Part shown: positions 17,079-33,674 of the stretch, piece by piece | Position numbering within the stretch: the first letter of the stretch is position 1 | Layout: the number at the start of each line of letters is the position of its first letter | Position numbers and translations under genes: made by a program | The notes under the pieces: generated by a model | What the model saw: the letters and a program-made list of their open reading frames with translations, nothing else | Database searches by the model: none | What the model was told of the DNA's origin: nothing | Assembly (NCBI RefSeq): GCF_002118315.1 | Contig: NZ_MTSZ01000004.1 | Coordinates: forward strand, 62,001-126,000 | DNA from: Kiloniella majae | GTDB lineage: Bacteria; Pseudomonadota; Alphaproteobacteria; Kiloniellales; Kiloniellaceae | Direction of reading: 5' to 3' | DNA length: 64,000 nucleotides

Positions 17079-18410
17079 ATGATAAAAATGAAGTGGTTTA
17101 GCTCGGTTAATGAAACAGCTTTGCCAGAGCGGGTTCTTAAGGCCATTCATGAACAGGAAGATAAAACAGAACGGTTGATTGGCTGGATTCAGCTCGCCGT
17201 TGTTTCTATTTTTGGTTCTCTCTATCTTATATCCCCAAAGACCTTTAACGAAGATGTGACTTTTGCACCGGTTCCCTGGGCCTTGAGCATTTATCTTGTT
17301 TTGACACTGATACGTATCGTTTGGGCCTATAACTTCCATATGCCTGACTGGTCTCTCGCCTTTTCTGCGCTTTTTGATATGACGCTTTTGATGGTTCTGA
17401 TCTGGAGCTTTCATGTTCAGTATAATCAACCGCCAAGTTTTTATCTGAAAGTCCCGACCCTTCTTTACGTTTTTATCTTCATAGCGATCAGAGCTTTGAG
17501 GTTTGAAGCCAAGTTCGTTGTCATTGCAGGATTATTTGCTGCTCTGGGGTGGGGGGTAATGATCATGTATGTTGTTTCCTTTGATTCCATGGATAGCATG
17601 ATTACGCGCGACTATGTGCACTACATGACCTCAAATTCTATTCTTCTCGGGGCAGAGTTTGACAAAATCATCTCTATTTTGGTTGTGACACTTATTTTGG
17701 CTGTCGCGTTGGTGCGTGCCCGGGCTTTATTGATTAATTCTGTTTCAGAACGACAGGCTGCGCAGGAACTTTCGCGTTTCTTTTCACCTGAAGTTGCCAA
17801 AAAGATTGCGGATTCAAAAGACAAAATAATGGCGGGAAGCGCCGAAAGACGTGAAGCCGCAATTATGAATTTGGATATGCGGGGGTTTACGAAGTTGGCC
17901 GCCGTGGAATCGGCGGAGATTGTTATGGGCACTCTTGCTGAATATCAGCAGCTTTGCGTTCCGATCATCCAAAAGCACGGCGGATCAATTGATAAGTTTA
18001 TGGGGGATGGCATCATGGCAACCTTTGGTGCTTCTGTTCCCTCTGAAACTTATGCCGCTGACGCTTTAAGAGCTATGGATGAATTGATGGATGTAACAGC
18101 ATCATGGCAGCGAAACAACGGTGAAGAAGCACCGCTGGTTAATGGGTCAATTGCTGTTGGACCTGTTCTCTTCGGGGCTGTTGGTGATGATACGCGCTTG
18201 GAATATACTGTGATTGGCGATGCGGTTAATCTCTCGGCAAAGCTTGAGAAACATAATAAAGATGTAGGGGTGCGTGCTCTTGCTGATCAAACGACCTATA
18301 AAAGAGCTGTCGAACAAGGGTATGAACCCTTGTTGGAGCGAAAGGTCCTGGAAAAGAGTCAGGTTGTCGGTGTTTCGGACACCATGGATCTTGTTGTCAT
18401 TGCAGATTAG
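17079..18410 (+). CDS. Membrane-bound class III adenylate/guanylate cyclase
   Basis: The 443-residue protein has about six hydrophobic membrane segments in residues 30-225 and a C-terminal class III cyclase domain (~250-430). The metal-binding aspartates are Asp266 (NLDMRGFTKL) and Asp310 (DKFMGDGIMATFG). The Lys in DKFMGD favours adenine. At the second substrate position LEYTVIGDAVNLSAKLE has Glu where Asp is usual and Lys where the transition-state Arg is usual; both are conservative, but activity should be tested. ATP-to-cAMP conversion is the expected role. It lies downstream of the response regulator and hydrolase genes, and a hairpin follows its stop. Confidence 0.92.
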   Translation: MIKMKWFSSVNETALPERVLKAIHEQEDKTERLIGWIQLAVVSIFGSLYLISPKTFNEDVTFAPVPWALSIYLVLTLIRIVWAYNFHMPDWSLAFSALFDMTLLMVLIWSFHVQYNQPPSFYLKVPTLLYVFIFIAIRALRFEAKFVVIAGLFAALGWGVMIMYVVSFDSMDSMITRDYVHYMTSNSILLGAEFDKIISILVVTLILAVALVRARALLINSVSERQAAQELSRFFSPEVAKKIADSKDKIMAGSAERREAAIMNLDMRGFTKLAAVESAEIVMGTLAEYQQLCVPIIQKHGGSIDKFMGDGIMATFGASVPSETYAADALRAMDELMDVTASWQRNNGEEAPLVNGSIAVGPVLFGAVGDDTRLEYTVIGDAVNLSAKLEKHNKDVGVRALADQTTYKRAVEQGYEPLLERKVLEKSQVVGVSDTMDLVVIAD

Positions 18411-18449: not shown

Positions 18450-19637
18450 TTATTTATAGGGATCTGCTGCATCACGCAGGCCATCACCCAAGAAGTTATA
18501 GCAAAGAACAACCAATATGACGGGTTGAACTGGTAAAAGCAGCCATGGATATAGTACGACGGCACTGATGTTCTGTGCTTCGTTGAGCAGCACTCCCCAT
18601 GATGTGATCGGGGCTCTTAATCCCAAACCAAGGAAAGACAAACTGGTCTCGCCCAATATCATCATGGGAATAGCGAGTGTTGCAGAAGCGATAAGATGAC
18701 TGCTGAACGAAGGTAAAAGGTGTTTCCCGATAATTCTTGCATGTGAAGCGCCCATTAACTGTGCTGCTGTGGTGAAGTCTTCTTCACGTAGGCTCAGCAA
18801 TTTAGACCTGACGGCACGGGCTAGTCCTGGCCAGTCCAGAAAACCCTGAATAATAGATATACCAAAGAAGACCCCGAGGGGACTCCATGTAACAGGCAAG
18901 AGGGCGGAAAGTGTCATAAACAACGGCAGGCTTGGGAAAGATTTGAGTATCTCAATGGCCCGCAGAACAAAATTATCGACAAGACCACCAAAATATCCGG
19001 CCAAACCGCCAAAGAAAGTGCCAAGCACAAAGCTGATAGCAACACCGATCAAACCGATTGTCAGGGAAATTCTTGACCCATAAATGATGCGACTAAAGAC
19101 ATCACGTCCCAAGCGATCTGTTCCCCAGATGAAAAGGGTTCCGTTTTCAGCCGGGCAAACGAAATGGAAGTCTCCGCTGATCAGGCCAAGATAATCGTAT
19201 TCCTGATCGCTCCGGCAAAAGAAGTTTAACTTCTGAATGTCAGATGTATTTGGTGTGTATTCCCGCTTTAGGTTCTCCATGTTGAGGTTGTAGTCAAAGC
19301 CATAGACAAAGGGGCCTATGAACTCGTCTTCATGGAAAAAGTGAATGGCTTGTGGCGGGGCGTAGATAAACTTTGTTTCCCGGTTGTGTAAATTATAGGG
19401 GGCAACCAGTTCTGCCAGTATCGCAACAATATACATGCACAACAGAATAACGCCGGAATAAACCGCCAGTTTGTGTTTTTTGAACTTCCACCACATGATC
19501 TGCCATTGTGATGCAGTGAAATAGCGTTCTTGCTGTGGCGTCAGCTTTGTTACTGACTGTGGATCAAAGGGCGCTGGATTGACGTAATGCTCCATGGGTC
19601 GTCTTTGGGACTGATGATCTGTTGTATTTTTGCTCAT
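18450..19637 (-). CDS. Opp/Dpp-type ABC transporter permease (OppC/DppC-like)
   Basis: This 395-residue inner-membrane permease ends with the BPD_transp_1 fold. The EAA loop region reads EDFTTAAQLMGASHARIIGKHLLPS, and the FLGLGLRAPITSWGVLL signature is typical of OppC/DppC. Unlike short members, it has a ~100-residue periplasmic segment between the first membrane helix and GTDRLGRDVFSRIIYGSRIS, with two Cys (FFCRSD, HFVCPAEN). It overlaps the preceding permease gene by 4 nt (ATGA). It is the last gene of the long minus-strand run and ends next to a bidirectional hairpin. Peptide or a related solute is the probable substrate. Confidence 0.92.
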   Translation of the reverse strand: MSKNTTDHQSQRRPMEHYVNPAPFDPQSVTKLTPQQERYFTASQWQIMWWKFKKHKLAVYSGVILLCMYIVAILAELVAPYNLHNRETKFIYAPPQAIHFFHEDEFIGPFVYGFDYNLNMENLKREYTPNTSDIQKLNFFCRSDQEYDYLGLISGDFHFVCPAENGTLFIWGTDRLGRDVFSRIIYGSRISLTIGLIGVAISFVLGTFFGGLAGYFGGLVDNFVLRAIEILKSFPSLPLFMTLSALLPVTWSPLGVFFGISIIQGFLDWPGLARAVRSKLLSLREEDFTTAAQLMGASHARIIGKHLLPSFSSHLIASATLAIPMMILGETSLSFLGLGLRAPITSWGVLLNEAQNISAVVLYPWLLLPVQPVILVVLCYNFLGDGLRDAADPYK

Positions 19638-20632
19638 TTTTCAGCTCCTCCGCCCAGACGAATTCTTGGGTCAATCGCTGCAAGAATCAGATCTGAAATG
19701 AAGACTCCAATAACAACAAGTGATGCCTCGATGATAAGGAATGATCCTGCGAGATACATGTCCTGACTCAGTAGAGAGTCAACAAGCATCGGACCCGTTG
19801 TTTCCAATCCCATGACCACAGCAACGAGAACAGATCCGGAAAGCAAGTCAGGTAGAATTGATCCAATATCAGCGATAAAGGGATTTATTGCCAAGCGAAG
19901 GGGATATCTCAAGAGGATCTTGAGCGGTGTTTGGCCTTTAGCTTTGGCTGTAATGACGTATTGCTTGGATAGTTCATCCAGCATGTTTGCCCGTAATCGT
20001 CTGATCATACCGGCGGTACCGGAAGTTCCAATTACGACCACGGGAACCCATAAATGCTCCAGCACAGACAAAGCCTTATCCATACTCCAGGGTTTACCGA
20101 TAAATTCATCATCCATCAGGCCACCGATAGAAGTACCGAACCAGACATTGGCAAAATAAAGCAAGACCAGAGCCAGTAAAAAGTTAGGCGTTGCAAGGCC
20201 AATAAAACCGACAAAACTGAAAACATAATCACCGACAGAATATTGTTTTACAGCGGTATAGATACCTATCGGGAAGGAAAGAACATAGGTAAAGAGCGTT
20301 GCGGCAAGGGCAAGGACAATCGTGAGGGTGATTCTATCGCCAATAACTTCGGTTACCGGTAGTTCATGTTCAAATGAATAACCAAGGTCGCCCTGTAAAA
20401 GCCCGAAAACCCAGTCGAAATATTGTTCATACATGGGTTTATCTAAACCGTATTCAGTACGGAGATAATCAATCTTTTCCTGATCGACGTTTTCACCCTG
20501 TGCCTGCATTTCGGCTATTTGTGTTTCAAGATAATCCCCGGGTGGTAGCTGAATCAGGGTAAAGATAACTGCTGAAATAATAAGTAGTGTTGGCACCATG
20601 GCCAAAATACGATTGACGATATAGCCCAACAT
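19634..20632 (-). CDS. Opp/Dpp-type ABC transporter permease (OppB/DppB-like)
   Basis: This 332-residue permease has the OppB/DppB layout: an N-terminal membrane helix (ILAMVPTLLIISAVIFTLIQLPPGD), a periplasmic segment containing EYGLDKPMYEQYFDWVFGLLQGDLGYSF, then five more helices. The EAA loop QYVITAKAKGQTPLKILLRYPLRLA contacts the ATPase. It shares one base with the upstream ATPase gene (TAATG) and four with the downstream permease gene, so the three are translated as a unit. No substrate-binding protein is encoded next to them. Confidence 0.93.
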   Translation of the reverse strand: MLGYIVNRILAMVPTLLIISAVIFTLIQLPPGDYLETQIAEMQAQGENVDQEKIDYLRTEYGLDKPMYEQYFDWVFGLLQGDLGYSFEHELPVTEVIGDRITLTIVLALAATLFTYVLSFPIGIYTAVKQYSVGDYVFSFVGFIGLATPNFLLALVLLYFANVWFGTSIGGLMDDEFIGKPWSMDKALSVLEHLWVPVVVIGTSGTAGMIRRLRANMLDELSKQYVITAKAKGQTPLKILLRYPLRLAINPFIADIGSILPDLLSGSVLVAVVMGLETTGPMLVDSLLSQDMYLAGSFLIIEASLVVIGVFISDLILAAIDPRIRLGGGAEK

Positions 20633-22548
20633 TATGCGTTCTCCCTCATACTTTTTTGAGGGATGGCGTCACACTCAGTGCCTTTATGGACGCGTACATA
20701 GTGTCCGCCACCTAAATCAACCATGGTCATCTCGTGTTGATCATTTACAGTAAAAGGCGCTGGCCAGTTTTCCGGCACTGAGGCTTTACCTTCCAGTAAA
20801 TCTTTTAAATCAAGCGGATGGTCGAGGTCGGGGTCTGGGACTGCAGATACCAACGCCCGGGTATAGGGGTGAACGGGATTTTTAAAGAGTAATTCTTTCG
20901 GAGCAGTTTCAACCAATCGTCCTCTGCACATGACGATAATCCGATCCGCAATGTAGTCTATAACTGCCAGATTATGGCTGATGAAGATATAGGTCAGGCC
21001 CAAAGCTGCTTTTAAATCTTTCAGCAGGTTAAGAACCTGTGCCTGAATAGACACATCTAATGCCGAAACAGGCTCGTCACAGATCAAAAGGTCGGGTTGT
21101 AGGGCCAATGCTCTGGCAATCCCGATACGTTGACGCTGCCCCCCTGAAAATGAATGGGGATAACGATTTATGTGCATTGGTGCCAATCCAACTACGTCCA
21201 TGAGGCTTTCAACGTATCTTCGCCGCTCTTTAGGGTCTTTCATACCATGTATGAGCAAGGGTTCACCAATTAACTCCTGCACAGTCATGCGGGGGTTAAG
21301 GGAACTATAGGGGTCCTGGAACATGAACTGGACGCGTTCACGAAAACCAAAGAGGTCTTTTTTCTCCAGCGCCAGAACATCTGTTGGATTATTATTCTGG
21401 TCCCGGAAAATAATTGACCCCTGATCGGGCTTCAGAGCACGCATGATGATCTTTGACAGTGTTGTTTTACCGCAACCGCTTTCGCCCACAAGGCCGAGGC
21501 ATTCACCACGATTGACAAAAAAACTGATGTCATCGACGGCCAATGCCTTTTCCGATGATTTTTGCGAGAAAAAGCCACCTTTTCTGATCGAAAAGGATTT
21601 TGAAATATTGTTTACCTCGAGCAAAGGAGGATCATCTTCACAAATTTTTCGTCTTTGTCTCTTTGCCTTGAGAATAGGATTGTCCGGATGGTGCTCTATT
21701 TCACGAATTGGTTTTAGTCGTTCATCCGGTTTCATATCAAAGCGCGGAACTGCGTGAAGCAAGGCTTTGAGATAGGGGTGCTCTGCTTTTCTGAAAATAT
21801 CTTCCAGCGTACCGCTTTCCATAACCTCGCCGTGATACATAACCACGACTTCATCTGCCATATTGGCAACGACGCCAAGGTCGTGAGTAATCATCAGAAC
21901 GGACATGTCCAGTTCGCTCTGTAAATCTTTGATTAGCTTAAGAATTTGCGCCTGAATGGTTACATCCAGGGCCGTTGTTGGTTCATCGGCGATAAGCAGG
22001 GCGGGGTGACACACCAGTGCCATGGCGATAACAGCGCGCTGTCGTAACCCACCTGAAAGTTCAAATGGATAGGTACGCATAGCCCTGATCGGATCGGGGA
22101 ACCCCACCATACGTAACATGTCGGTTGCAAGTTCGAGTGCTTGAGCTGAGGAAATGGCTCGGTGCAACTCTAACGCTTCACAGATCTGGTTGCCAACGGT
22201 ATGTACTGGCGATAGCGAGGTCATAGGTTCCTGAAAAACCATGGATATCCGGCCACCACGGATCTGTCTCATCTGTTTGCTATCAGGGGGGATCCTTGCC
22301 AGATCAAGAATTTCGCCTTGTTTTTCAGGATCGGAAAAAAGAATTTCTCCGCCTGCTATTTCGGCTACTTTGGGCAAAATTCCCATAATCGCCTGACTGA
22401 CAACGGATTTTCCTGATCCTGATTCACCGACAAGAGAAACTGTTTTCCCCCTCGGTACACGAAAGGATACGCCTTTGACGGCGTTCAAAGTTCCTTCTGG
22501 AAGCTTAAATGCGACACGGAGGTCTTTGACCTGTAACAGATCGTTCAC
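20632..22548 (-). CDS. Opp/Dpp-type ABC transporter ATPase with two nucleotide-binding domains
   Basis: The 638-residue protein fuses two complete ATPase domains, as in GsiA or YejF. Domain 1 has GESGSGKS (Walker A), LSGGLRQR (signature; Leu in place of the usual Q-flanking residue) and LLIADEPTTALD (Walker B). Domain 2 has GESGCGKT, FSGGQRQR and LLICDEPVSALD, then the typical C-terminal HPYTRALVSAVPDPD segment. It should energise uptake through the two downstream permeases. The start is GTG at 22548. The upstream gene is 55 nt away on the same strand, linking it to the glycosyltransferase run. Confidence 0.94.
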   Translation of the reverse strand: MNDLLQVKDLRVAFKLPEGTLNAVKGVSFRVPRGKTVSLVGESGSGKSVVSQAIMGILPKVAEIAGGEILFSDPEKQGEILDLARIPPDSKQMRQIRGGRISMVFQEPMTSLSPVHTVGNQICEALELHRAISSAQALELATDMLRMVGFPDPIRAMRTYPFELSGGLRQRAVIAMALVCHPALLIADEPTTALDVTIQAQILKLIKDLQSELDMSVLMITHDLGVVANMADEVVVMYHGEVMESGTLEDIFRKAEHPYLKALLHAVPRFDMKPDERLKPIREIEHHPDNPILKAKRQRRKICEDDPPLLEVNNISKSFSIRKGGFFSQKSSEKALAVDDISFFVNRGECLGLVGESGCGKTTLSKIIMRALKPDQGSIIFRDQNNNPTDVLALEKKDLFGFRERVQFMFQDPYSSLNPRMTVQELIGEPLLIHGMKDPKERRRYVESLMDVVGLAPMHINRYPHSFSGGQRQRIGIARALALQPDLLICDEPVSALDVSIQAQVLNLLKDLKAALGLTYIFISHNLAVIDYIADRIIVMCRGRLVETAPKELLFKNPVHPYTRALVSAVPDPDLDHPLDLKDLLEGKASVPENWPAPFTVNDQHEMTMVDLGGGHYVRVHKGTECDAIPQKSMRENA

Positions 22549-22603: not shown

Positions 22604-23155
22604 TTATATTCCCGACGTTTGTGGATCCGGCATTTCGCTGCTGCCTTCTGGATCAAGTCCGATGTCTAGCATATTGCCAATGGTGCTAGGGTCAAGCGGC
22701 AGGTTGCACTCTTTCGCAAATAGTATGGTTGACCAGACAAGGTATTTGAAACCATACAAGTTGGAATCAAAAGTGAACTTTTGTTCTTTGCTCTTTAAAG
22801 TCAGGTGCAGAACGCCTTTGGGTTTTTGGTCACTATCTTTGTCTTTCACAGGGCGTCCGTAATAGCGTAACTCAATGTTTTCTATATCCTTGAACAGAAT
22901 TTTTCGCTGTTTGAAATCTGTAATTTCAACCTGCTGGCTGTCTAGATTTACGCGTGTTCTGTGACGTCTTAGTGAATGGAAGCCAAAGATAATAAAGATA
23001 ATGAGTATGGCGCTAAAACAGATTTGGGAAAAAGTGTTGTTCAGACCGTAAATCAGTCCGCCGAGACCTATTGATAAGCCAAAAGCTGTTTTCAGATAAT
23101 CGAGATAAATATCAAAAAGGGGATACTTGAAACTTTGTGGGGCTATTTGGGGCAC
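22604..23155 (-). CDS. Hypothetical membrane protein with PH-like cytoplasmic domain
   Basis: I do not recognise a named family. The 183-residue protein has two hydrophobic segments (about residues 22-42 and 46-64). They are followed by a strand-rich stretch, TRVNLDSQQVEITDFKQRKILFKDIENIELRYYG, which resembles the bacterial PH-like domains attached to two-helix hairpins. It starts with GTG, overlaps the end of the upstream glycosyltransferase gene by 13 nt and is therefore probably part of that operon. A scaffold or regulator role at the membrane is inference. Confidence 0.72.
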   Translation of the reverse strand: MPQIAPQSFKYPLFDIYLDYLKTAFGLSIGLGGLIYGLNNTFSQICFSAILIIFIIFGFHSLRRHRTRVNLDSQQVEITDFKQRKILFKDIENIELRYYGRPVKDKDSDQKPKGVLHLTLKSKEQKFTFDSNLYGFKYLVWSTILFAKECNLPLDPSTIGNMLDIGLDPEGSSEMPDPQTSGI

Positions 23156-24387
23156 TGGATGTCTCTCTTTTTGTGTCTTTTCTCAATTAGCTCTTTGATA
23201 AACAGTGTTGTCTTGTCCGTACCGTGAACATCGACTTTTACTTTTGACCCGGACTTTGAAGGCCCCGATTTTGAGGACCCCGATTTCGAGAACAAGGGTT
23301 TTTGAACAGCTTCGTTTATTTTTTTTGCCAGATTTTCCGGGGTTAAGTCGGCTTCTGATAGCAGAGATAGTACGCCAGCATTGGCAAGCTTTTGTGCTCT
23401 ATCCGTCTGTTCACTTTGACCATCTGCTGAAAAAGGGACGACTATCGCCGGTGTCTCGGTCATCAGAGTTTCCATAACGGTGTTATATCCGGCCTGACTG
23501 ATAGAAAGCTGTGTTGTGGACAAAAGCCTACAAAAATCCGGGCGATTTCGTTCAACAATTATACCATCAGGGGAACGTTTGACGATGTCGTTGAATTCCT
23601 GATCAGGTAGATTGTTTCCCAGAAGCAATCGCCAGGGAACATTGTTTAAAGTGGAAAGATCCTTGGCTTTGATGACCGCTTCAGCCAAAGGCAGAGCAAC
23701 AGCACCTCCGCCTGCAGAAACGAGTACACCCTTTCTATCTTCTGGTGAACTGGTTCTATCACTGGGGTCTCGATTTTGGTCATGCTCAACCACGTAGCCA
23801 GTATAGATTATTTTATTTTTAATTTTTGCGGCAAGCGGAAAGCTGTCTTCAAGCGGAACAAAATCTGGATCACCATGCACCAGGACATGATCGATATCTT
23901 TCTGAACCCGATCAATAATCCACTCACTCTTTCCCGGGGTTTTATGGGTTGTGAGAATATCGCGGATAGAACTGATAACCGGGATATCCATCGATTTGGC
24001 CAGCACAATCAAGGGGTCCAGCTCAAAGCGCATCTGGCGTCTGCCAAAGGGAAACATTTCGATCAAGAGAACGTCTGGTTGAGCCTCGCGAAAAGCTGAT
24101 AACAGGAGCTCTTTTCGTTTTTCTTTCCACTCATCATCAACGATTGATCCGTTAATATCCTTTAGAACCTTAAAACTGTTATCGGCAGCATGAAGGGCTG
24201 GAAGCTGAAAAAGTTCGGCGTTACCAACATCAAGATAGGACACAGGGCGTCCACCTGATGCAAAAAGTACGGACATGCCTGCTTTATCCATGGTTTTGGC
24301 AAGTAAAGAAGCCCGTCTGAGGTGTCCGATCCCCAAAAGATACTGAACATAGATAAAAACATTAACCGGGTGTTTGTGGATCTTCAT
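23143..24387 (-). CDS. GT-B glycosyltransferase, MurG-like (copy A)
   Basis: This ~414-residue glycosyltransferase has a two-domain GT-B layout. The N-terminal nucleotide-fold entry is FIYVQYLLGIGHLRRASLLA, with a family-specific LLIEMFPFGRRQMRFEL. The C-terminal donor-binding motif SISQAGYNTVMETL is comparable to the GT28/MurG G-G-x-S/T-x-x-E loop. It is a clear paralogue of copy B (25024-26250). The start is placed at ATG 24387, which overlaps the upstream stop as TAATG, with AGAAG upstream. A C-terminal SKSG repeat (near 23235-23300) precedes the end. Donor and acceptor sugars cannot be read; it is not MurG itself, as no dcw genes are present. Confidence 0.85.
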   Translation of the reverse strand: MKIHKHPVNVFIYVQYLLGIGHLRRASLLAKTMDKAGMSVLFASGGRPVSYLDVGNAELFQLPALHAADNSFKVLKDINGSIVDDEWKEKRKELLLSAFREAQPDVLLIEMFPFGRRQMRFELDPLIVLAKSMDIPVISSIRDILTTHKTPGKSEWIIDRVQKDIDHVLVHGDPDFVPLEDSFPLAAKIKNKIIYTGYVVEHDQNRDPSDRTSSPEDRKGVLVSAGGGAVALPLAEAVIKAKDLSTLNNVPWRLLLGNNLPDQEFNDIVKRSPDGIIVERNRPDFCRLLSTTQLSISQAGYNTVMETLMTETPAIVVPFSADGQSEQTDRAQKLANAGVLSLLSEADLTPENLAKKINEAVQKPLFSKSGSSKSGPSKSGSKVKVDVHGTDKTTLFIKELIEKRHKKRDIQCPK

Positions 24388-25031
24388 TAGGGGGCTTCTT
24401 CTGGGTGGTTTGATGATTTTACGGGTCTTGGGAAGCAATCAATAGGTGATAACAAGCTGATATTCATTGTTTTTACACTGATTTTACCTGCTGAGGAAAT
24501 CTGAAAAAGATGAGCACAGTTATCTCTTATTTTTTCTTTTGGTTTGCCGCGCATGTCCCAGTTTGTTGCGGCGGCATAAAGCGCTCTTAGGACTCCTTTG
24601 TGAGCTACAGCAACAACGGATATGTCTGATTTTCCTATTCTACTTAGAAAAGGTTTCAGGCGTTCTTGGACATCTCTTGGACTTTCACCGTCGGGGGGGC
24701 ACAGATCCAGCCCAAGGGCTTCCATCTTTTCCATTTCTGGTCCCAATTTTTCCCTCAATTCGGGTAGTTTTTGCCCTTCCCAATTTCCCCAGGACATTTC
24801 GATCAGCAAAGGATCAGTCGTAAATTTCTCTTGCCCGACTAGTTTGGCGGTTTCTTGGGCGCGTTGCAAAGGACTGACATACCAAGGCATCTCCATCCAT
24901 TCCTTTGGAAGTTGCCATTTTTGAACCGTTTCGATGCCCTGTTCAGAAAGGGAAATATCAGATCTTCCCTGCATTCTTTTTTCTGCATTCCAAACGGTTG
25001 GCCCGTGCCTGAAGATTAATATTTCAGCCAT
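24387..25031 (-). CDS. Histidine phosphatase family protein
   Basis: The 214-residue protein belongs to the phosphoglycerate-mutase-like histidine phosphatases. The catalytic RHG is at residues 8-10 (LIFRHGPTVWN), the phosphate-pocket region is PLQRAQETA, the acid is in EMSWGNWEGQ, and the second His is in VAVAHKGVLRALYAA. It lies between two glycosyltransferase paralogues, overlapping copy B by 8 nt upstream and copy A by 1 nt downstream (TAATG), so it belongs to the same pathway. Dephosphorylation of a sugar-phosphate intermediate is a plausible but unproven role. Confidence 0.9.
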   Translation of the reverse strand: MAEILIFRHGPTVWNAEKRMQGRSDISLSEQGIETVQKWQLPKEWMEMPWYVSPLQRAQETAKLVGQEKFTTDPLLIEMSWGNWEGQKLPELREKLGPEMEKMEALGLDLCPPDGESPRDVQERLKPFLSRIGKSDISVVAVAHKGVLRALYAAATNWDMRGKPKEKIRDNCAHLFQISSAGKISVKTMNISLLSPIDCFPRPVKSSNHPEEAP

Positions 25032-26250
25032 TTTTTAGAAATTTTTGTAATGGTTTATCATCCAGGATATTTGAAAGGATTGTCGCTGTGTTTTCAGCGC
25101 CGTTTGTATTCAAACTGGATGGCGGCTTTTGCCTGTTTTGTAGTGTTTTCTCTATGGCTGTGGCGAGCTTTTCTGCTGTCAGTGTTTCTTCATCTACAAA
25201 GGTGAGGGCATTTTGTTCAGATAACAGTTTAGCTCTGAGGGTCTGTTCTGTTTCCAGACCACCGGAATAGGGGACAATGACCCGAGGGCATCCGGCACGC
25301 AGAACCTCCATAACCGTGTTGTATCCACCTTGGCTTATTGATAGTGCGCAGTTGGCCAATAGAGAGGTGAAATCTGGTCTTGAGCGTTCAATAATCAAGT
25401 TGTTATCTGATTGTGCTCTGTATTTTTCGAATAGCTTTTCCGGCAAGCTATGGCCAATGAGAATGCGCCATCGTTTTTCTTTTAAGACACTTTGTTTTCT
25501 TGCATTTAACGCAGCTTCGATCAGCCGCTCGCTGACGGCTCCGCCACCGGTTGAAACCAGGACTTCATCAATGCCATCCGTCGGGTGAGGCGTACCGTCA
25601 ACTTTTTCATCAACCACGTAACCGCTATAAAGAATCGTATCAGCGATATCCCGGGCGGGATGAAAGGTTTTATCAAAGGGAATTAAATTTTGATCACCGT
25701 GAATCAAAACGTGATCAAAATGAGTGTCCACCCAGGCAAGCATTTCGGTAATACGTTCCGGTTTTGGGGCCTTGACCAGAATATCGCGAACGGATGAAAT
25801 TATTTTACAGGAAAATTCAGATGTTTTCGCCGCTTCGAGTAGAGGAATAAGTTCAAAGCGCATCTGTCGACGCCCAAAGGGAAACATTTCCAACAGCACA
25901 AGCCGTGGTTTTGTGTCGTGATAAATATCGACAAGATCTCTGGCTCGTTTAGCCTTGAAGGCTTTATCAATTGGCCGGTCGTTTTGATCCAGTAATTTTG
26001 TAAAAAGGATACCATCTGCACGAACGGGATCCAGTTGATAAAATTCTGCACTGCCCGTATCTAGCCCAGGGACATCCATACCACCGGAAACAAAAGCAAC
26101 CGATAGACCAGCTTTATTCATAGCTCGGGTGAGGGTTGCAGCCCGTTTTTGATGTCCGATACCGAGAAGATGTTGAACATAAAAAAGAACGTCAATGCGT
26201 TCCTCAGAATTCTTGGTTTCAGATCTCGTGGTTTCAGGTGTCATTGTCAT
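25024..26250 (-). CDS. GT-B glycosyltransferase, MurG-like (copy B)
   Basis: This 408-residue glycosyltransferase is the paralogue of copy A. It shares VLFYVQHLLGIGHQKRAATL near the N-terminus, LVLLEMFPFGRRQMRFEL in the middle of the N-domain, ISSVRDILV, DHVLIHGDQNLIPF, LYSGYVVDE, and the donor-site motif SISQGGYNTVMEVL in the C-domain. It begins at ATG 26250, overlapping the end of the upstream glycosyltransferase by 4 nt (ATGA), and overlaps the phosphatase gene by 8 nt. The tandem A/B pair separated by a phosphatase suggests duplication followed by division of labour in one pathway. Confidence 0.86.
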   Translation of the reverse strand: MTMTPETTRSETKNSEERIDVLFYVQHLLGIGHQKRAATLTRAMNKAGLSVAFVSGGMDVPGLDTGSAEFYQLDPVRADGILFTKLLDQNDRPIDKAFKAKRARDLVDIYHDTKPRLVLLEMFPFGRRQMRFELIPLLEAAKTSEFSCKIISSVRDILVKAPKPERITEMLAWVDTHFDHVLIHGDQNLIPFDKTFHPARDIADTILYSGYVVDEKVDGTPHPTDGIDEVLVSTGGGAVSERLIEAALNARKQSVLKEKRWRILIGHSLPEKLFEKYRAQSDNNLIIERSRPDFTSLLANCALSISQGGYNTVMEVLRAGCPRVIVPYSGGLETEQTLRAKLLSEQNALTFVDEETLTAEKLATAIEKTLQNRQKPPSSLNTNGAENTATILSNILDDKPLQKFLKNG

Positions 26251-27434
26251 AGTATCTTGTTTTTCTTGGCATAATCCAATAAGGGTAACCCCGGCTCAAT
26301 ATAGTCTTTTCTGGATGTTGAAAGGATTGCGTCCAGACGCTGTCCTGCTGTCACCAGACTATGCATTGCTTCGACCTTTTGTGCGGCAGATTTTCCCATA
26401 TCCCTACGACGAACGGGGGCGGTTAGCAAACTTCGCAACGCAGCTGCAAAGGCTACGGGATCTCCGGGGGCTGTCAGCAAGCCGGTTTCGCCATCTGCGA
26501 CTACTGCCGGGACACCTCCTGTATTTCCTGCGATGACAGGTAATCCACCAGCCTGTGCCTCCAGAAAAGCCAGACCATAAGCTTCGTTAACCGCAGGCCA
26601 GGTATAGATATCACATGCGGGAATAATTGTTGTTAGCTCCTCGGGATCAAGCTGACCAGTGTAGGTAATTTTGGTTTTTGGTACCCATATAAAGCTTGCT
26701 TCTACGTCAGGTCTGGCCTGTCCATCGCCTACGATAATCAACTGCCATGATAAATCAGGAAGGCCGCGCAAAGCTTGCGATAACACTTTGTATGATTCCA
26801 GTTTGTCTCCGGGGCGCATCATGGCAATTGCCAGTAACCATTGTTTGTGCGGGTCCAATCCGTATTTCTCCGCAACAGCCTTACGACACTGTGACCAGTT
26901 TTCCCGTTTTGTTATAATTGGGTCGGGAGCAATAAAGGGTGGCAGGGTCCAGTTTCTAACAGTATCGGGTAGGCAGTGTGTATCATGTGGGTTTAGGCTG
27001 ATAACACATTCTGCCTGATTTACCGCAGCGACGACGGCCTGATGGCTTAAGTCCCAAGGTCCGTTGGCTCGTTTGTTGGCGATAGATGCTTCTATGGGAA
27101 TGTAGGGAATATTAAGGGCGTCACATACAAGGGGGCCGATCCAGTCCGGCGCTTTGTAATAGAGATGGTAAGTGATCCAGACTTTAGGACGCTGGTCTTT
27201 TGGCTTGGATTGAATTTTTTTTATGTATCTTGCGGCAAGCTTTTCGCCAATTTTCTTCAATCTGGCCTGACGATTTTTGTCACCGGTTGCATCTCTACTC
27301 CGTAGGTGAGAGGCTATGTGGACGTCGTGCCCTTGAGTTTCTAAGGCTTGGATAAGTAATCTGGCAACGTGACGGTCACCCGATGGCGTTGGATGGTGGG
27401 GCGATTTTAGAGGGGCGTAAAAAGCGATCCGCAT
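26247..27434 (-). CDS. Glycosyltransferase family 4 protein
   Basis: This 395-residue retaining glycosyltransferase starts with the GT4 N-domain RIAFYAPLKSPHHPTPSGDRHVARLL. The C-domain carries IVGDGQARPDV, ITYTGQLDPEEL and the E-x7-E catalytic element in NEAYGLAFLEAQAGGLPVIAG, followed by GGVPAVVADGETGLL. It uses a nucleotide-sugar donor to extend a glycan at the cytoplasmic face. It lies 12 nt after the next upstream GT4 gene and overlaps copy B by 4 nt, so it is firmly within the operon. Specific linkage is unknown. Confidence 0.92.
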   Translation of the reverse strand: MRIAFYAPLKSPHHPTPSGDRHVARLLIQALETQGHDVHIASHLRSRDATGDKNRQARLKKIGEKLAARYIKKIQSKPKDQRPKVWITYHLYYKAPDWIGPLVCDALNIPYIPIEASIANKRANGPWDLSHQAVVAAVNQAECVISLNPHDTHCLPDTVRNWTLPPFIAPDPIITKRENWSQCRKAVAEKYGLDPHKQWLLAIAMMRPGDKLESYKVLSQALRGLPDLSWQLIIVGDGQARPDVEASFIWVPKTKITYTGQLDPEELTTIIPACDIYTWPAVNEAYGLAFLEAQAGGLPVIAGNTGGVPAVVADGETGLLTAPGDPVAFAAALRSLLTAPVRRRDMGKSAAQKVEAMHSLVTAGQRLDAILSTSRKDYIEPGLPLLDYAKKNKIL

Positions 27435-27446
27435 TCTATCGCCTGA

Positions 27447-28670
27447 CTATTGCGCCGTGAACCGGTTGAAAAGCTGATCTATGCCTTGTTTCATGGAAAA
27501 CTCACCTCTTACGCGTTTTGCTCCGGCTTGCCCCAGCTTTTCCCTTCGTATGGGATCTTCGATGAGCTTTTTGAGTGCATCGGCTAAAGCATCTGGGTTT
27601 TCTGGTGAAACCAATATACCCGTTTCATTGTTAACAATAAGCTCAGGTATAGCAGATATATCGGTTGAAAGGCAGGACAGAGCCTGACTTTGCGCTTCCA
27701 TAAGCACATTCGGCATGCCATCGCGATCACCATCTTCAGTGATTCTGGATGCTAAAACAAACAGATCTGCTTTTCGGTATTGTTCCAGAACAACCTCCTG
27801 AGGTTGCGCCCCCATCCAGGTGATTTTATCGCTAATACCGAGTGATTCAGCCTGGCTTTTCAGATCCTTGCTTAATGTTCCGCCCCCGATATGAATAAAG
27901 TGCCAATGTAAAGTTGCAGGTAAAGCAGAAAGAGCTTTGAGTAAATCATCATAGCCTTTTTTTGCAACCGCACGTCCGACTGATATTAAAGTCACACTTT
28001 TATCTTCAGAACTTCCATCATTCACTGAGTGAGTGTTGGACGCTTCATCAAAACGATCAAAATCAAGGCCGTGGTAGACTAGGTCTACACGGCTTTTATC
28101 CGTGGTTAAGCCCCTTAAATAGTCCACGTTGAATTTTGTACATGTTGCTAACCATTTAATATCAGAAAGTTTTTCCCGAAGCTCCCATTCCGGGGATGTC
28201 CATATGTCTTTGGCATGGGCCGATCCACACCAGGGGATATCCTGTATAAAAGAGGCGTAGCGCGTTACTGAAGACGGGGTATGTAAAAAGTGCGCATAGA
28301 GCCAATCTACATCCTCTGGCAATTCAGTGGCAAGAACACAGGCTTGAGCGAAACGTCTTATTCGATTTGGGGTGCGGTCGCGCTTAAGATCTTTGATGAA
28401 CAGGGAAAAGGCTTTTTTGTAACCTGCCAGTTTTCGGGCTTTCCACCAGCTTTTCAAGACTCGTAAAGGCTCTTGATAGATATATTCTGGTAGATAGCTA
28501 ACAGGCGCTTTGATTTCTTGATGGATGGGATGTGTGGATGTATCCGTGGGATGGCGCAGTGAGACCAGTGACAGATCCAGCCCGCGTTTTTCCAACGCAA
28601 GAAGTTCCTGTGCAATAAAAGTTTCAGAAAGGCGTGGGTAACCCTTTAGGATTACGGTTATTTTTTTCAT
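27447..28670 (-). CDS. Glycosyltransferase family 4 protein (WcaL-like)
   Basis: This 407-residue GT4 enzyme begins ITVILKGYPRLSETFIAQELLALE, a start typical of colanic-acid WcaL/AmsK-like transferases. C-terminal features are LISVGRAVAKKGYDDLLKAL, ITWMGAQPQEVVLEQYRKAD and DGMPNVLMEAQSQALSCLSTD (E-x7-type loop), then IPELIVNNETGILV. It lies 81 nt downstream of glycosyltransferase copy C and 12 nt upstream of the next GT4. It probably works on an exopolysaccharide or glycolipid together with its neighbours; the product is unknown. Confidence 0.92.
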   Translation of the reverse strand: MKKITVILKGYPRLSETFIAQELLALEKRGLDLSLVSLRHPTDTSTHPIHQEIKAPVSYLPEYIYQEPLRVLKSWWKARKLAGYKKAFSLFIKDLKRDRTPNRIRRFAQACVLATELPEDVDWLYAHFLHTPSSVTRYASFIQDIPWCGSAHAKDIWTSPEWELREKLSDIKWLATCTKFNVDYLRGLTTDKSRVDLVYHGLDFDRFDEASNTHSVNDGSSEDKSVTLISVGRAVAKKGYDDLLKALSALPATLHWHFIHIGGGTLSKDLKSQAESLGISDKITWMGAQPQEVVLEQYRKADLFVLASRITEDGDRDGMPNVLMEAQSQALSCLSTDISAIPELIVNNETGILVSPENPDALADALKKLIEDPIRREKLGQAGAKRVRGEFSMKQGIDQLFNRFTAQ

Positions 28671-28751
28671 ACCGTCGAATAATATCTCTTTTGCTGCTGC
28701 ATGCTTTTAGTGAGAGGTATTTTGGCGTGGCGCACGATCAGGCAGGTGGGG

Positions 28752-30050
28752 TTAATTTGTGTTTGATAGTTTGTCGATCAGTCCCAGCTTTGAAAGCTTT
28801 GCCTTGAAGCAGTTATCAGCAAGCTTGATGACGTTTTTCTGGCCATCCAGCAATCCGGGTACCACAACATCAGATGGGAGATGCTGTTGTGGTAAATTTC
28901 TTAAGGCTGTTGCCATTTTTTGTGGATCGCGCTTGTCATCATTTTCCAGCATACAGACCAAACCGAGTTCCTGTGCACGGCTGGCCCGGATGTATTGTTC
29001 CATTCTGGGGACAGTTCTCGGTACGATGAGGGCACGTTTATCGTAGGACAGGATTTCACAAAAGGTATTGTATCCTCCCATACCGACGATGCCGATGGCT
29101 CTATCAACCAAACTTTCAAACTGGGCATTAAAGGTGATGGCTTCAACGTTAGGTAATTTACTGGCACGAACCTGAAAGTCATGCTGAAGATCACTATTCA
29201 TAAAGGGTCCAAGAGCAATCAGCGCTGGATAGGGAAGATCCGGATCGCTTTCATAGGCAGAGAGGACCCAGTCAATGATTTCTTCACCATCGCCGCCGCC
29301 GCCAACCGTCACGAGTAAATAGGGCGTTTCTTCACCTATTTTCTCAAGTACAGGCATGGGGACATCACTGCCCCCGGTCCGACGCAGATAGCCAGTATAG
29401 GTCATTTTTCGCTGAACAGATGGGGGTAAATCAATGCCATCCAGCGGGTCGCAGATTTGGGGAAGACCATAAACCCATATGTCGTCATAGTATTCTGATA
29501 AAGCAGGTGCTGTGTTTTTACGCTCCCACTCAGTAGAGAGAAGATCCGGATCATCCATGACATCTCTGAGACCCAGAACGCAAGGGGTGCCTCTACTTTT
29601 GAGTAAGCGAAGTGTGTCTTCTACTTCGCCTCTGAGGCCCAAAGGTTCTTTATCGACAATGAAAAGATCTGGATCATAAAATTCTGCAGTGTGCTTGATA
29701 ATGGATGATCTGATGCTCAGGGTTTGCTCGATATCTATATGCAAATTAAGCGAAGTATAATCGCCATTTCTCAGTTTGATGACCCCGGGGATACGGACAA
29801 AATCCACACGTGCTTTAAATCCGAAAGACCCGATGATCGGTGATCCGGATAAAATCAGAACAGATAAGTTTTTATGTTCTTCTACCAGTGTATGGGCAAT
29901 TTCCCGACAGCGCCGTAAATGGCCCAGACCAAAGCTATCGTGACTATAGATTAGAACACGGGTACTTTTATGATCATCAACAATATGTGTACTGTCTTGT
30001 GTAATGGCTTCGCTCCCCTCGGTAGTGTTGGCGACTATGCCACATTTCAT
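28752..30050 (-). CDS. GT-B glycosyltransferase, MurG-like (copy C)
   Basis: The 432-residue protein has a GT-B organisation related to copies A and B but more distant. After a ~30-residue polar N-terminus come VLIYSHDSFGLGHLRRCREIA, LRDVMDD, KMTYTGYLRR, LVTVGGGGDGEEI and the donor-site motif GIVGMGGYNTFCEIL. It is the first gene of the minus-strand run and its start faces the ABC exporter gene across a 377-nt divergent region. AGGA directly abuts the ATG, so the exact start is a little uncertain. Confidence 0.84.
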   Translation of the reverse strand: MKCGIVANTTEGSEAITQDSTHIVDDHKSTRVLIYSHDSFGLGHLRRCREIAHTLVEEHKNLSVLILSGSPIIGSFGFKARVDFVRIPGVIKLRNGDYTSLNLHIDIEQTLSIRSSIIKHTAEFYDPDLFIVDKEPLGLRGEVEDTLRLLKSRGTPCVLGLRDVMDDPDLLSTEWERKNTAPALSEYYDDIWVYGLPQICDPLDGIDLPPSVQRKMTYTGYLRRTGGSDVPMPVLEKIGEETPYLLVTVGGGGDGEEIIDWVLSAYESDPDLPYPALIALGPFMNSDLQHDFQVRASKLPNVEAITFNAQFESLVDRAIGIVGMGGYNTFCEILSYDKRALIVPRTVPRMEQYIRASRAQELGLVCMLENDDKRDPQKMATALRNLPQQHLPSDVVVPGLLDGQKNVIKLADNCFKAKLSKLGLIDKLSNTN

Positions 30051-30427: not shown

Positions 30428-33145
30428 ATGGAACAAAGACTTTTCAAGTATATTTGGAAGCACAGTAAAAAGGATCAGATCAAAATTCTTTTCCTGGTGC
30501 TTGCATCCATGCCCTTTTATTTCCTGTCATTGGATTTACCAAAAAGCATCATCAATCGTGCTGTCGACTCTCAGAACTTTGCAGACATAAATTCTACCCT
30601 GTCTTTCATGCGGTTTGAGCTTCCTTTTGGGGAAGCAATCTTTGGGCATAAAGTTATTTTATTTGAAGGGTTTGACTTAACGCAAATCTCATTATTGTTC
30701 GCATTGTGCTTTGCTTTTCTGGGGCTTGTACTGGTCAATGGGCTCTTCAAGTTTGTTATTAATACTCTAAAAGGCCAACTGGGCGAGCGGATGCTCCGAA
30801 GATTGCGTTTTGAGCTGACGGATCGCATCCTTCGTTTTCCTGTTATGCATAGTCGCCGTGTTAAACAGGCGGAAATTGCAACGATGCTCAAAGATGAAGT
30901 TGAACCTCTTGGCGGCTTTATCGGTGATGCGATTGTTACCCCGTTCTTTTTAGGTGGTCAGGCCCTGACGGCATTGATCTTTATCATGGTCCAGAACGTT
31001 TGGCTGGGCGTTGTTGCGATGAGTATCGTCCTCGTACAGGCTTTTGTGATCCCCAAGCTTCGTAGGCGTATTCTCGATCTTGGACGTCAACGTCAAATGA
31101 CAGCCCGCGCCTTGGCTGGACGCGTGAGTGAATTGGTCGAAGGCGCTGTTGAAATCCAGTCTCACGATACCAGTAATTATGAACGTGCAGAGATATCAAG
31201 CAGACTGGGTAAGATTTTCAAGATCCGGTATGAGATCTATCAGCGAAAGTTTTTTGTTAAGTTTTTGAACAATTTGCTGGCACAGATAACACCTTTTATT
31301 TTCTATCTTGGTGGCGGGTATTTGGTGATAACCGGGCAGTTTGAGATCGGTACACTTGTTGCCGTTCTCGCTGCTTACAAAGATTTACCCCCTCCGATCA
31401 AAGATCTCATTAATTGGGATCAACAACGAAATGATGTTCAGATCAAGTACGAACAGGTTGCCGAACAGTTCCAGCCAAGCGGTATGATCGATGCTGAAAT
31501 GCAGCGGCTTGAAGAAAAACATAGCCCGCCGCTGGAAGGCGATATTGTTGCCAGCAATCTGGGTCTTGTAGATGAAAATGAGAACAAACTTCTGGAAGGC
31601 ATCACCTTCACAGTTGGCGTTGATAAGAAAATTGCCATTGTTGGCAATGCCAGCAGTGGTAAGGAATATCTAGGGTTGCTTCTGGCCAATTTGGTTAAAT
31701 CGTCTTCGGGGTCGATGAAAATAGGCGGTAAGCCGATGGCTCAATTGCCTTCTGCGATAACCGGACGTCGAATTTCCTACGTTAGCTCCGAAGCTTACCT
31801 CTTTCCCTTGTCTGTTATGGACAACCTTTTTTATGGGTTACGAAACTGGATGATCAAAGACTCATCCTGTCTCCCTGACTCAGAGGCTGAATTGCTTCGG
31901 GAAAAACAAGAAGCCCTTCGAACGGGGAACATTGCTTTAAACCCAAATGGTGAATGGATTGATTTTACGTCTGCTGGGATAAATGATCCGGCCGAATTGG
32001 TTCCCCGGGTAACAGAAGTATTACGCGCTGTTGATTTTGAAGAAGATGTCTATCTTTTTGGCTTGAGTGGAATCGTGGACAGTGAAAATCGCCCGGATAT
32101 CGCGGAGAGTATTCTCGGGGCGAGAATTGCATTGAAAGAGCATTTGAAAGCGACTGGTGAAGAAGATCTTGTTATCGCTTTTGATCCTGAAAAATACAAT
32201 AATAATGCAACTTTACGCGAAAATCTTTTGTTCGGAACACCGCGTAAAAAACAGTATGCAGGCAATAATCTTCTGGCGATGCCAATTTTGCGCGAGTCAG
32301 TTGAAGAGGCTGATTTAAGAGACAGTATCTATAATATGGGTCTTTCTATTGCCCGTACTATGGTTGAACTCTTTATGGGTCTTCCACCGTCTCACCAGTT
32401 CTTCGAACAATTCAGCTTTATCTCTGCTGACGATCTTCCTGAGTTCGATAAGATTGTAAAGCGAGCGGATAAAAGTAGCTTCTCTGAAATATCAGATTCT
32501 GATCGGGAAGCCTTGATGTATTTGCCTTTTGATTATGTAGAGGCCCGTCATCGTCTTGGACTTGTGACAGAAGATGTTGAGGCCAAAATTTTGAAGGCCC
32601 GTACGATCTTTGCGGAGAAGCTGGAAAGCCGTGATCCGGATGCTGTGGAGTTTTACGACCCGGATAATTATAACTCAGCGGCAAGTATCCAAGATAACAT
32701 CCTCTTTGGTCGCCTGGCCTATGGACGTGCCGAAGCAGGTGCGACAATCGGGCGGGTGATGACAGAGCTTCTGGATGATCTGGGGTTACGTTCAGAAGTG
32801 ATCGAAGTTGGACTTGAATTTAACGTCGGTATTGCTGGAAATCGTTTGAGCAGTGTTCAGCGGCAAAAGCTGGCTCTGGCTCGTTCGCTGATCAAGCGAC
32901 CGGATCTTTTGATTTTGAACGAAGCTGCAGCGGTTATGGATTCTCAAAGCCAAAACAGACTGGTACCGTCTATTATGGAGGCACAGGAAGATCGCGGCAT
33001 TTGCTGGACATTGCAGAGGGCGAGTCTGTCTCAGCATTTTGAATATGTTATTGTCATGCAGAATGGAAAAGTTGTCGAAAGTGGCCGTTTCGATGAGTTA
33101 AACAAAGATGGTAAGGTTTTAAAAAGTCTGATTGATGACGAATAA
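30428..33145 (+). CDS. ABC exporter-like protein with enlarged, degenerate nucleotide-binding domain
   Basis: The 905-residue protein has a type I exporter membrane domain (about six helices, residues 15-330) fused to an ABC domain of ~540 residues instead of ~240. All key motifs are altered. Walker A is GNASSGKE (406-413, Glu for Ser/Thr), the Q-loop residue is Glu455, the signature is LSSVQ (807-811), Walker B is LLILNE (Asn831 for Asp, Glu832 kept) and the switch His is Gln (TLQRAS). Between the first Q-loop segment and the signature, ~300 extra residues hold two more copies of the N-x-L-F-G segment (586-605 and 744-763). ATP hydrolysis is therefore doubtful. It is followed 64 nt later by a cNMP-binding protein and faces the glycosyltransferase operon. 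Confidence 0.9.
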   Translation: MEQRLFKYIWKHSKKDQIKILFLVLASMPFYFLSLDLPKSIINRAVDSQNFADINSTLSFMRFELPFGEAIFGHKVILFEGFDLTQISLLFALCFAFLGLVLVNGLFKFVINTLKGQLGERMLRRLRFELTDRILRFPVMHSRRVKQAEIATMLKDEVEPLGGFIGDAIVTPFFLGGQALTALIFIMVQNVWLGVVAMSIVLVQAFVIPKLRRRILDLGRQRQMTARALAGRVSELVEGAVEIQSHDTSNYERAEISSRLGKIFKIRYEIYQRKFFVKFLNNLLAQITPFIFYLGGGYLVITGQFEIGTLVAVLAAYKDLPPPIKDLINWDQQRNDVQIKYEQVAEQFQPSGMIDAEMQRLEEKHSPPLEGDIVASNLGLVDENENKLLEGITFTVGVDKKIAIVGNASSGKEYLGLLLANLVKSSSGSMKIGGKPMAQLPSAITGRRISYVSSEAYLFPLSVMDNLFYGLRNWMIKDSSCLPDSEAELLREKQEALRTGNIALNPNGEWIDFTSAGINDPAELVPRVTEVLRAVDFEEDVYLFGLSGIVDSENRPDIAESILGARIALKEHLKATGEEDLVIAFDPEKYNNNATLRENLLFGTPRKKQYAGNNLLAMPILRESVEEADLRDSIYNMGLSIARTMVELFMGLPPSHQFFEQFSFISADDLPEFDKIVKRADKSSFSEISDSDREALMYLPFDYVEARHRLGLVTEDVEAKILKARTIFAEKLESRDPDAVEFYDPDNYNSAASIQDNILFGRLAYGRAEAGATIGRVMTELLDDLGLRSEVIEVGLEFNVGIAGNRLSSVQRQKLALARSLIKRPDLLILNEAAAVMDSQSQNRLVPSIMEAQEDRGICWTLQRASLSQHFEYVIVMQNGKVVESGRFDELNKDGKVLKSLIDDE

Positions 33146-33209: not shown

Positions 33210-33674
33210 ATGTCGATTGAACAAGAAGTTGAAGCGTTAAAAAATATTCCGCTTTTTGCGAATATAGATCCTTCCAGGCTAAAGCTTATGGCCTTTGCCA
33301 GTGAACGCCTGATTTTTAAAGAAGGTAAAGAGCTTTTCCATCAAGGTGATGCCGGGGATGCTGCTTATATATTCATTGACGGAGAAGCGGATGTCATTGT
33401 TGATACAGATGACGGGCCTCTTGTTGTTGCTTCTTTTGCGAAAAATGATTTTGTAGGCGAGATTGCTATTCTCTGTGATGTGCCAAGGACAGCAACCATT
33501 AAAGCCAAGTCGGAACTGGTAACATTAAAAATTACCAAGGAACTCTTTTTCAATATGGTGATGGACTTCCCGGAAATGGGTGTTGAAGTTATGCGAGTAC
33601 TAGCGCATCGCATCGATCACACAACAAGTCAGTTAACCGAAGCTAGAAACGCATTGGCTGACAAAGCGAGCTAA
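33210..33674 (+). CDS. Stand-alone cyclic nucleotide-binding domain protein
   Basis: The 154-residue protein is a single cNMP-binding domain. It has FHQGDAGDAAYIFIDGEADV (first beta strands) and the phosphate-binding cassette FVGEIAILCDVPRTATIKA, with the Gly-Glu pair and the Arg that binds the cyclic phosphate intact. A helical tail follows. There is no helix-turn-helix domain, so it is not a Crp/Fnr transcription factor. It lies 64 nt after the ABC exporter gene on the same strand and probably regulates that protein or its pathway in response to cAMP or cGMP (inference). The membrane cyclase at 17-18.4 kb is a possible source of signal. Confidence 0.92.
   Translation: MSIEQEVEALKNIPLFANIDPSRLKLMAFASERLIFKEGKELFHQGDAGDAAYIFIDGEADVIVDTDDGPLVVASFAKNDFVGEIAILCDVPRTATIKAKSELVTLKITKELFFNMVMDFPEMGVEVMRVLAHRIDHTTSQLTEARNALADKAS

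Follow-up and report, generated by a model that had tools for sequence, protein, structure and literature searches.

What becomes of an ATP-binding cassette (ABC) exporter when the residues of its ATP motor are altered and the gene is nonetheless maintained? This question is raised by a gene of Kiloniella majae (Alphaproteobacteria) that lies in a window of 64,000 nucleotides (contig NZ_MTSZ01000004.1, positions 62,001 to 126,000; coordinates below are those of the window, which denotes this whole stretch). The gene, at 30428..33145, encodes an exporter-type transmembrane domain (TMD) followed by an enlarged and degenerate nucleotide-binding domain (NBD). The protein is tentatively viewed, with a confidence a little short of even, as the membrane component of a module for glycan transport or gating under cyclic-nucleotide control, in which the NBDs have mostly turned regulatory. 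The domains and motifs concerned are:

30428..33145, forward strand: pseudo-ABC exporter, TMD plus enlarged degenerate NBD; 905 amino acids, ATG start
30428..31477, forward strand: TMD, residues 1-350, the best-conserved part of the family
31646..31666, forward strand: altered Walker A NASSGKE, residues 407-413 (by alignment)
32846..32860, forward strand: altered signature LSSVQ, residues 807-811 (by alignment)
32906..32923, forward strand: altered Walker B LLILNE, residues 827-832 (by alignment)
33014..33016, forward strand: switch His replaced by Gln863 (by alignment)

An earlier interpretation, made from the letters of the window (the sequence-only reading), held that an exporter TMD and an ABC NBD are joined in one chain. 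This is borne out by Pfam, which finds ABC_membrane at residues 93-314 (6.2e-14) and ABC_tran (1.3e-13) split over two stretches, as well as by sequence matches in the PDB (e.g., PCAT1, TmrAB and MsbA among the best 60 of 351) and by fold matches of the predicted structure (best 50 of 1394), which are ABC exporters throughout. The whole chain is predicted with a pLDDT of 80.6 and a pTM of 0.74, while TMD stretches 176-194 and 319-328 fall below a pLDDT of 50, such that the TMD geometry carries no claim. The nearest homologues are Kiloniella records of 94-96% identity. The protein is genuine, not an artefact, and is an unusual, widespread variant of ABC exporter.

Residue assignments in the 905-residue protein were made by alignment. 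In Walker A, Lys412 is kept and Glu413 replaces the Ser/Thr; in Walker B, Asn831 stands in place of the Asp and the catalytic Glu832 is kept, as is the D-loop Asp838. The A-loop aromatic position is occupied by Leu380. The alignment agrees with the sequence-only reading that all NBD motifs are altered (a Walker A ending in GKE, LSSVQ, an Asn in Walker B and a Gln at the switch), and shifts one of its assignments: the Q-loop Gln position had been placed at Glu455, one position off, whereas the aligned site in the stretch YVSSEAYLF (residues 451-459) is Ser454, and Glu455 corresponds to the acidic residue that ordinarily follows the Q-loop Gln. The close relatives L013-L016 have a Gln at the Q-loop position.

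The alteration of the motifs extends across the family. In a first pass, limited to the best-matching loci, 123 rows were aligned and thinned at 80% identity to 63; 75 further members were then added, and the final set of 198 distinct rows was reduced to 128 by greedy thinning at 80% identity (70 dropped), with plasmid records and the partial or interrupted matches G010, G525, G538, G563 and G589 set aside. The best row of the first pass has six of the nine canonical residues. All nine occur together in none of the 128 non-redundant rows, and eight or nine in none of the 198; the rows with zero to seven canonical residues number 14, 23, 21, 41, 14, 12, 2 and 1, respectively (n=128). The Walker A Lys is kept in 68 of the 128 rows and the Ser/Thr in 17, with both together in five, and the Lys is followed by Glu or Asp in 53. 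The Q-loop Gln is kept in 24 rows; in the signature the Ser is kept in 66, the first Gly in 16 and the second Gly in 13; in Walker B the Asp is kept in 29 and the Glu in 58, with both in five; and the switch His is kept in 32, the other 96 including one gap. By contrast, an ordinary exporter from the Kiloniella genome, the orthologues of which were collected as a control from 57 genomes of the class (E 1e-130; 37 positive), has nine of nine canonical residues in 30 of 30 rows. The contrast of 0/128 with 30/30 supports the earlier proposal that homodimers of such a protein should not hydrolyze ATP in the normal way, as judged from residues, and the family-wide decay beside an intact control backs the notion of a repurposed ABC fold; the roles of gated channel, scaffold or sensor that the sequence-only reading offered for it stay conjectural.

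The case that would speak most directly against this notion, the insert described below combined with intact Walker A, Walker B, Gln and His residues, was sought in the 198 rows and not found. The near miss is L219, which keeps seven of nine (the Walker A Lys-Thr, the Walker B Asp-Glu and the His, with a signature of LSGAQ) and lacks the Q-loop Gln and the second signature Gly. As the nearest relatives of L219 (60-61% identical) are decayed, motif loss is not uniform across the family. On a tree of the 63-row set built from the TMD only, each catalytic site undergoes 7 to 14 state changes, and the decay is therefore scattered over lineages; the tree is a quick build with several weak forks and some long branches.

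Constraint on the family is placed differently from that on an ordinary exporter. Mean column conservation across the 128 rows is 0.633 in the TMD, 0.504 in the NBD and 0.419 at the nine catalytic sites (the 63-row first pass gave 0.664 and 0.418, much the same), compared with 0.612, 0.756 and 0.985, respectively, in the control, so that the TMD/NBD order is reversed; the control rows are unthinned, gathered at a strict cut-off and less divergent than the outer members of the family, and the exact values are thus not comparable. Within the TMD, Lys108, Lys274, Lys278 and Asn281 are near-invariant (conservation 0.96-0.98) and lie in or adjoin hydrophobic segments. Near-invariant basic and polar residues of this type would fit a negatively charged cargo, for instance a lipid-pyrophosphate glycan.

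Selection on the ABC gene is strongly purifying. Against four same-genus homologues, the ratio of nonsynonymous to synonymous substitution (dN/dS) is 0.019-0.028 for the whole gene and at most 0.073 in any part, ratios that are rough since synonymous divergence is large, reaching about 2 in places. Motif decay, taken alone, would also fit a decaying, pseudogene-like exporter relic; a pseudogene is excluded by the dN/dS of 0.019-0.028, and the relic is exceedingly improbable given this range and the breadth of the family, which is carried by 108 of 289 sampled Alphaproteobacteria genomes (E 1e-60) with an internal stop in only one listed place (G589). The family is likewise found in 36 of 41 relatives, the Kiloniella majae genome included (E 1e-80), in 27 of 398 genomes of the phylum, all 27 of which are Alphaproteobacteria (E 1e-60), and in 262 of 72,556 plasmid records, mostly of Rhizobium and Sinorhizobium. 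One member, L058, is from a metagenome-assembled genome of the Gammaproteobacteria that could be misbinned.

The enlargement of the NBD is formed of repeats and a unique part:

31763..32107, forward strand: copy 1, Q-loop and post-Q-loop element with extra helices, residues 446-560 (profiles, predicted structure)
32159..32347, forward strand: copy 2 of the post-Q-loop element, residues 578-640 (profiles, shuffles, predicted structure)
32348..32632, forward strand: unique helical stretch within the insert, residues 641-735, conserved across the family (conservation, structure prediction)
32633..32827, forward strand: copy 3, continuing into the signature motif, residues 736-800 (profiles)

The three NxLFG segments that had been picked out from the sequence are present, and their likeness is clear when they are compared as profiles. 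In hhalign (single-pair E), copies 2 and 3 match at 1.1e-14, copies 1 and 2 at 5.1e-6 and copies 1 and 3 at 8.3e-6, whereas column-shuffled copy-2 profiles, 20 per comparison, do no better than 0.0033 with copy 3, 0.069 with copy 1 and 0.036 with the control NBD; this shuffle control covers the copy-2 profiles only. In the Kiloniella sequence alone, the likeness of copies 2 and 3 is clear (0 of 2000 shuffles reach the real score), and that of copy 1 to either is weak (47 of 2000 for copy 2; 125 of 2000 for copy 3). Against the NBD of the control exporter, the match of copy 1 is to the Q-loop segment (4.2e-7) and that of copy 3 extends from the Q-loop segment through the signature (1.4e-5), while copy 2 alone matches weakly (0.005, close to its shuffles). 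Copy 1 is still attached to the first half of the NBD and copy 3 to the second half; these joins indicate a tandem duplication inside the NBD. The profile matches and shuffles agree with the derivation of the repeats from the post-Q-loop element that the sequence-only reading had put forward. The Asn of copies 1, 2 and 3 is kept in 123, 128 and 128 of the 128 rows, respectively. In the predicted structure, copies 2 and 3 form a strand, a short helix, a strand and two longer helices, with one extra short helix in copy 2; copy 1 starts alike and then diverges. The insert modelled alone has a pLDDT of 84.5, and no solved fold was matched by it (best Foldseek E 0.59).

The next gene downstream of the ABC gene, overlooked in the sequence-only reading, encodes a cyclic-nucleotide-binding (CNB) domain:

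33210..33674, forward strand: stand-alone CNB-domain protein, 154 amino acids, PF00027 at 1.2e-16, phosphate-binding cassette GEIAILCDVPRTA

This arrangement was surveyed in 134 loci (drawn from two collections, with some genes doubled) and in 75 further loci, a CNB gene being counted as downstream if within 1.5 kb. In the 134 loci, the CNB domain is downstream in 123 and fused C-terminally in seven, two loci are cut off and two have none; in the 75, it is separate in 65, fused in six and not found in four. Overall, a separate downstream gene is present in 188 of 209 loci and a C-terminal fusion in 13 of 209. The cut-off locus L113, in its longer stretch (L181), has a fused CNB domain that is 44.5% identical to the Kiloniella CNB. 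Among eight proteins scanned by Pfam, the fusion is confirmed in L058, L109, L111 and L116; the other four are L112, which is truncated, and L042, L079 and L102, in which the CNB gene is separate. Adjacency plus fusion provides strong evidence that the ABC and CNB proteins work together, and a linked or fused CNB speaks for a transporter or gate under signal control more than for a simple scaffold. In 54 non-redundant rows, the cassette keeps its Gly in 53, Glu/Asp in 52 and Arg in 52, with one row truncated at that point; as the cassette is kept, binding of a cyclic nucleotide appears likely. The ligand need not be cyclic AMP (cAMP) or cyclic GMP, since the CNB domain of the Nostoc exporter HetC is described as binding guanosine tetraphosphate (ppGpp) (PMC10986499). 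The genomes G122 and G154 (L109, L110, L115, L116 and L249) have two or three divergent copies with a fused CNB and about 30% identity to the Kiloniella protein. L127 (longer stretch L178), which has six canonical residues, is without a CNB gene nearby, and L219, with seven, has one.

The identity of the linked partner bears on whether the protein could be half of a heterodimeric exporter, supplying the degenerate site and pairing with a canonical half-transporter encoded elsewhere (cf. TmrAB, TM287/288 and ABCB2/B3). A degenerate site is a frequent feature of type I exporters, and in the known examples it binds ATP while a second, canonical site hydrolyzes it (PMC7756269); the retained Lys412 of the Kiloniella protein and the further exporters encoded in the Kiloniella genome would be consistent with such a pair. 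Yet the decay spans Walker A, Walker B, the signature, the Gln and the His, and the partner that is linked is the CNB protein. No linked half-transporter is seen with a canonical-exporter query (E 1e-10, flanks up to 8-12 kb), which finds matches in 5 of 58 loci, all inside the family gene. A heterodimer, the partner of which could be unlinked, is considered quite unlikely.

Regulation by a CNB domain could also act on a protein that is still, in some or all members, an ATP-driven glycan exporter or flippase. HetC is a precedent of an active exporter that likewise needs a CNB-type domain to function (PMC10986499), the Kiloniella protein keeps Lys412, Glu832 and Asp838, and L219 keeps Walker A, Walker B and the His. 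Set against these are the 60 of 128 rows without the Walker A Lys, 99 without the Walker B Asp, 70 without the Glu and 96 without the His, as well as the 7 to 14 changes per site on the 63-row tree, such that this alternative is considered rather unlikely. The systems that invite comparison differ from the family in architecture. The type I ABC exporters (e.g., MsbA, PCAT1, TmrAB and ABCB1) share the six-helix TMD followed by an NBD; the family departs from them in its altered NBD motifs, its duplicated insert and a TMD that is more conserved than the NBD. HetC has an N-terminal CNB, a C39 peptidase domain and a catalytic ATPase residue that is essential (PMC10986499), while in the family the CNB is separate or C-terminal and the NBD is decayed. 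A Pfam scan of the Kiloniella protein finds neither an N-terminal CNB nor a C39 peptidase domain. Bacteriocin-type (NHLM) ABC exporters are encoded beside a CNB protein, TIGR03896; the Kiloniella CNB protein scores 38 bits against TIGR03896 (cut-off 161) and the ABC part 149 bits against the NHLM exporter model (cut-off 853), and the family differs from NHLM exporters in being without a peptidase domain and in its glycan context.

That context is provided by genes upstream in the window:

16113..16952, forward strand: MBL-fold (metallo-beta-lactamase) hydrolase, adjoining the class III cyclase
17079..18410, forward strand: membrane class III adenylate/guanylate cyclase, 443 amino acids, a possible signal source (Pfam 4.8e-9)
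18450..22548, reverse strand: Opp-type importer genes encoding two permeases and a double ATPase
23143..30050, reverse strand: five glycosyltransferases, of which three are GT28-like and two GT4, plus a histidine phosphatase at 24387-25031

Across 52 loci (flanks of up to 8 kb, limited by contig ends), glycosyltransferase gene matches occur in 45-48. Opp ATPase matches occur in 36, of which ten are weak NBD matches inside the family gene, leaving 26. On an annotated plasmid of Rhizobium sp. Pop5, the cyclase, Opp genes, three glycosyltransferases, the ABC gene and the CNB gene form one run, and much of the neighborhood is kept in Mesorhizobium, Azospirillum and Sulfitobacter. No substrate-binding protein is matched by Pfam in the Opp run at 18450-22548; an open reading frame of 183 amino acids at 22604-23155 matches no Pfam family, and Rhizobium and Mesorhizobium have a substrate-binding-protein gene at that place. 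In L042, the gene immediately after the CNB gene encodes a cyclase of 42% identity. The Kiloniella cyclase has the residues of an adenylate cyclase, namely both metal Asp, the Lys and the Asp-Asn, but a Lys at the usual place of an Arg. Homologues of the MBL-fold hydrolase (40-48%) start no more than about 500 bases downstream of the CNB gene in 31 loci; the hydrolase may thus belong to the signaling module, perhaps as a cyclic-nucleotide phosphodiesterase. A defense system was considered, as PADLOC reports matches to models of Pycsar cyclases and CNB-TIR effectors, along with a weak match of the NBD to mad3, and was rejected, the context not being one of defense.

The glycosyltransferase and Opp genes, together with the catalytic residue decay and a large conserved helical insert that would fit protein contacts, are also what might be expected of a non-transporting scaffold or receptor, which would hold the glycosyltransferases or the Opp system, or sense a ligand, while the CNB reports a signal. 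This is an unlikely explanation: the TMD is the best-conserved part and has near-invariant residues at membrane segments, which fits a path better than an anchor, and L145 and L180 are without the glycosyltransferase cluster.

With the exporter scaffold kept, the motor mostly lost, the TMD most constrained and a sensor attached, signal-gated glycan passage is the simplest joint reading. In the cyclic-nucleotide-controlled module favored here, two copies of the protein would form an ABC-exporter-shaped homodimer in which the TMD keeps a conserved passage and the NBDs, in most members, would no longer be an ordinary ATP motor. The helical subdomain, enlarged by copying of its own post-Q-loop element, may provide a surface on the NBD for docking of the CNB protein, whether separate or fused. 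The nucleotide bound by the CNB would probably be cAMP supplied by the locus's own class III cyclase, and the ligand-bound CNB is predicted to alter the NBD dimer such that the transmembrane path opens or closes. The product of the neighboring glycosyltransferases is the likely cargo.

Several observations weigh against this module. The Walker A Lys is retained in about half of the members (68/128) and the Walker B Glu in 58/128, with both kept in the Kiloniella protein (Lys412 and Glu832), and L219 may, from its residues, hydrolyze ATP, as may some other members. No downstream CNB domain is present in 6 of 209 loci; in L178, L257, L258, L259 and L260 none is found in stretches of 14-19 kb either, and at the sixth, L179, the contig ends. 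Three loci of genome family f155, L231, L235 and L240 (longer stretches L260, L257 and L258), have neither CNB nor glycan genes nearby, and in Ruegeria (L145) and in L180 the ABC gene is without glycan genes. The CNB cassette is weaker in the divergent fused members. Cyclase-domain matches occur in only 22 of the 52 loci (flanks of up to 8 kb), mostly at 25-30% identity, and the cyclase sequence itself has Lys at a site where Arg is usual.

A more specific form of the idea is possible though doubtful: a cyclic-nucleotide-gated ABC conduit in which hydrolysis is lost in most members, the triplicated element serves as a docking or gating ring, and the whole is an independent counterpart of CFTR/SUR in the glycan systems of Alphaproteobacteria. 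SUR1 uses the ABC exporter fold as a channel regulator, and SUR keeps one hydrolytic site. ABC proteins serving as gates instead of pumps are known chiefly from animals, with CFTR and SUR as examples, and retain a functional ATP site. ABCC7 (CFTR) uses the fold as a gate with one hydrolytic site kept (PMC7756269). By contrast, the presumed homodimer of the family would be without a hydrolytic site in most members, and its control input would be a CNB domain; the likeness to CFTR and SUR1 is, by analogy, one of logic and not of descent. If this holds, a common bacterial family with both sites of the homodimer dead-looking in most members, a best-kept passage and a sensor attached would show that ligand gating can take over from an ABC motor, and cyclic-nucleotide signaling would be tied directly to surface-glycan transport. 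Members span L219, which has seven of nine residues, and fourteen rows that have none, a range of decay along which the disappearance of the motor could be followed; the family also occurs in strains well suited to laboratory work, such as Sinorhizobium meliloti 2011.

In the open-access literature no description of the family was found, most subscription papers lying outside the search. The S. meliloti name of the family member may be SMb20813, an unproven guess. SMb20813 is named as the msbA homologue in PMC10945364. S. meliloti MsbA2 (SMb21191) is, as in the family, an exporter-type ABC protein encoded beside glycosyltransferases (PMC3687685). Identity of the two was considered and rejected, since the family member lies at 842-844 kb of pSymB and the msbA2 operon near 938 kb (PMC3687685). 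In S. meliloti 1021 (L142, pSymB about 842-844 kb) the match begins only at query residue 138, while in Sinorhizobium meliloti 2011 it begins at query residue 1, and the strains may thus differ in the ABC gene.

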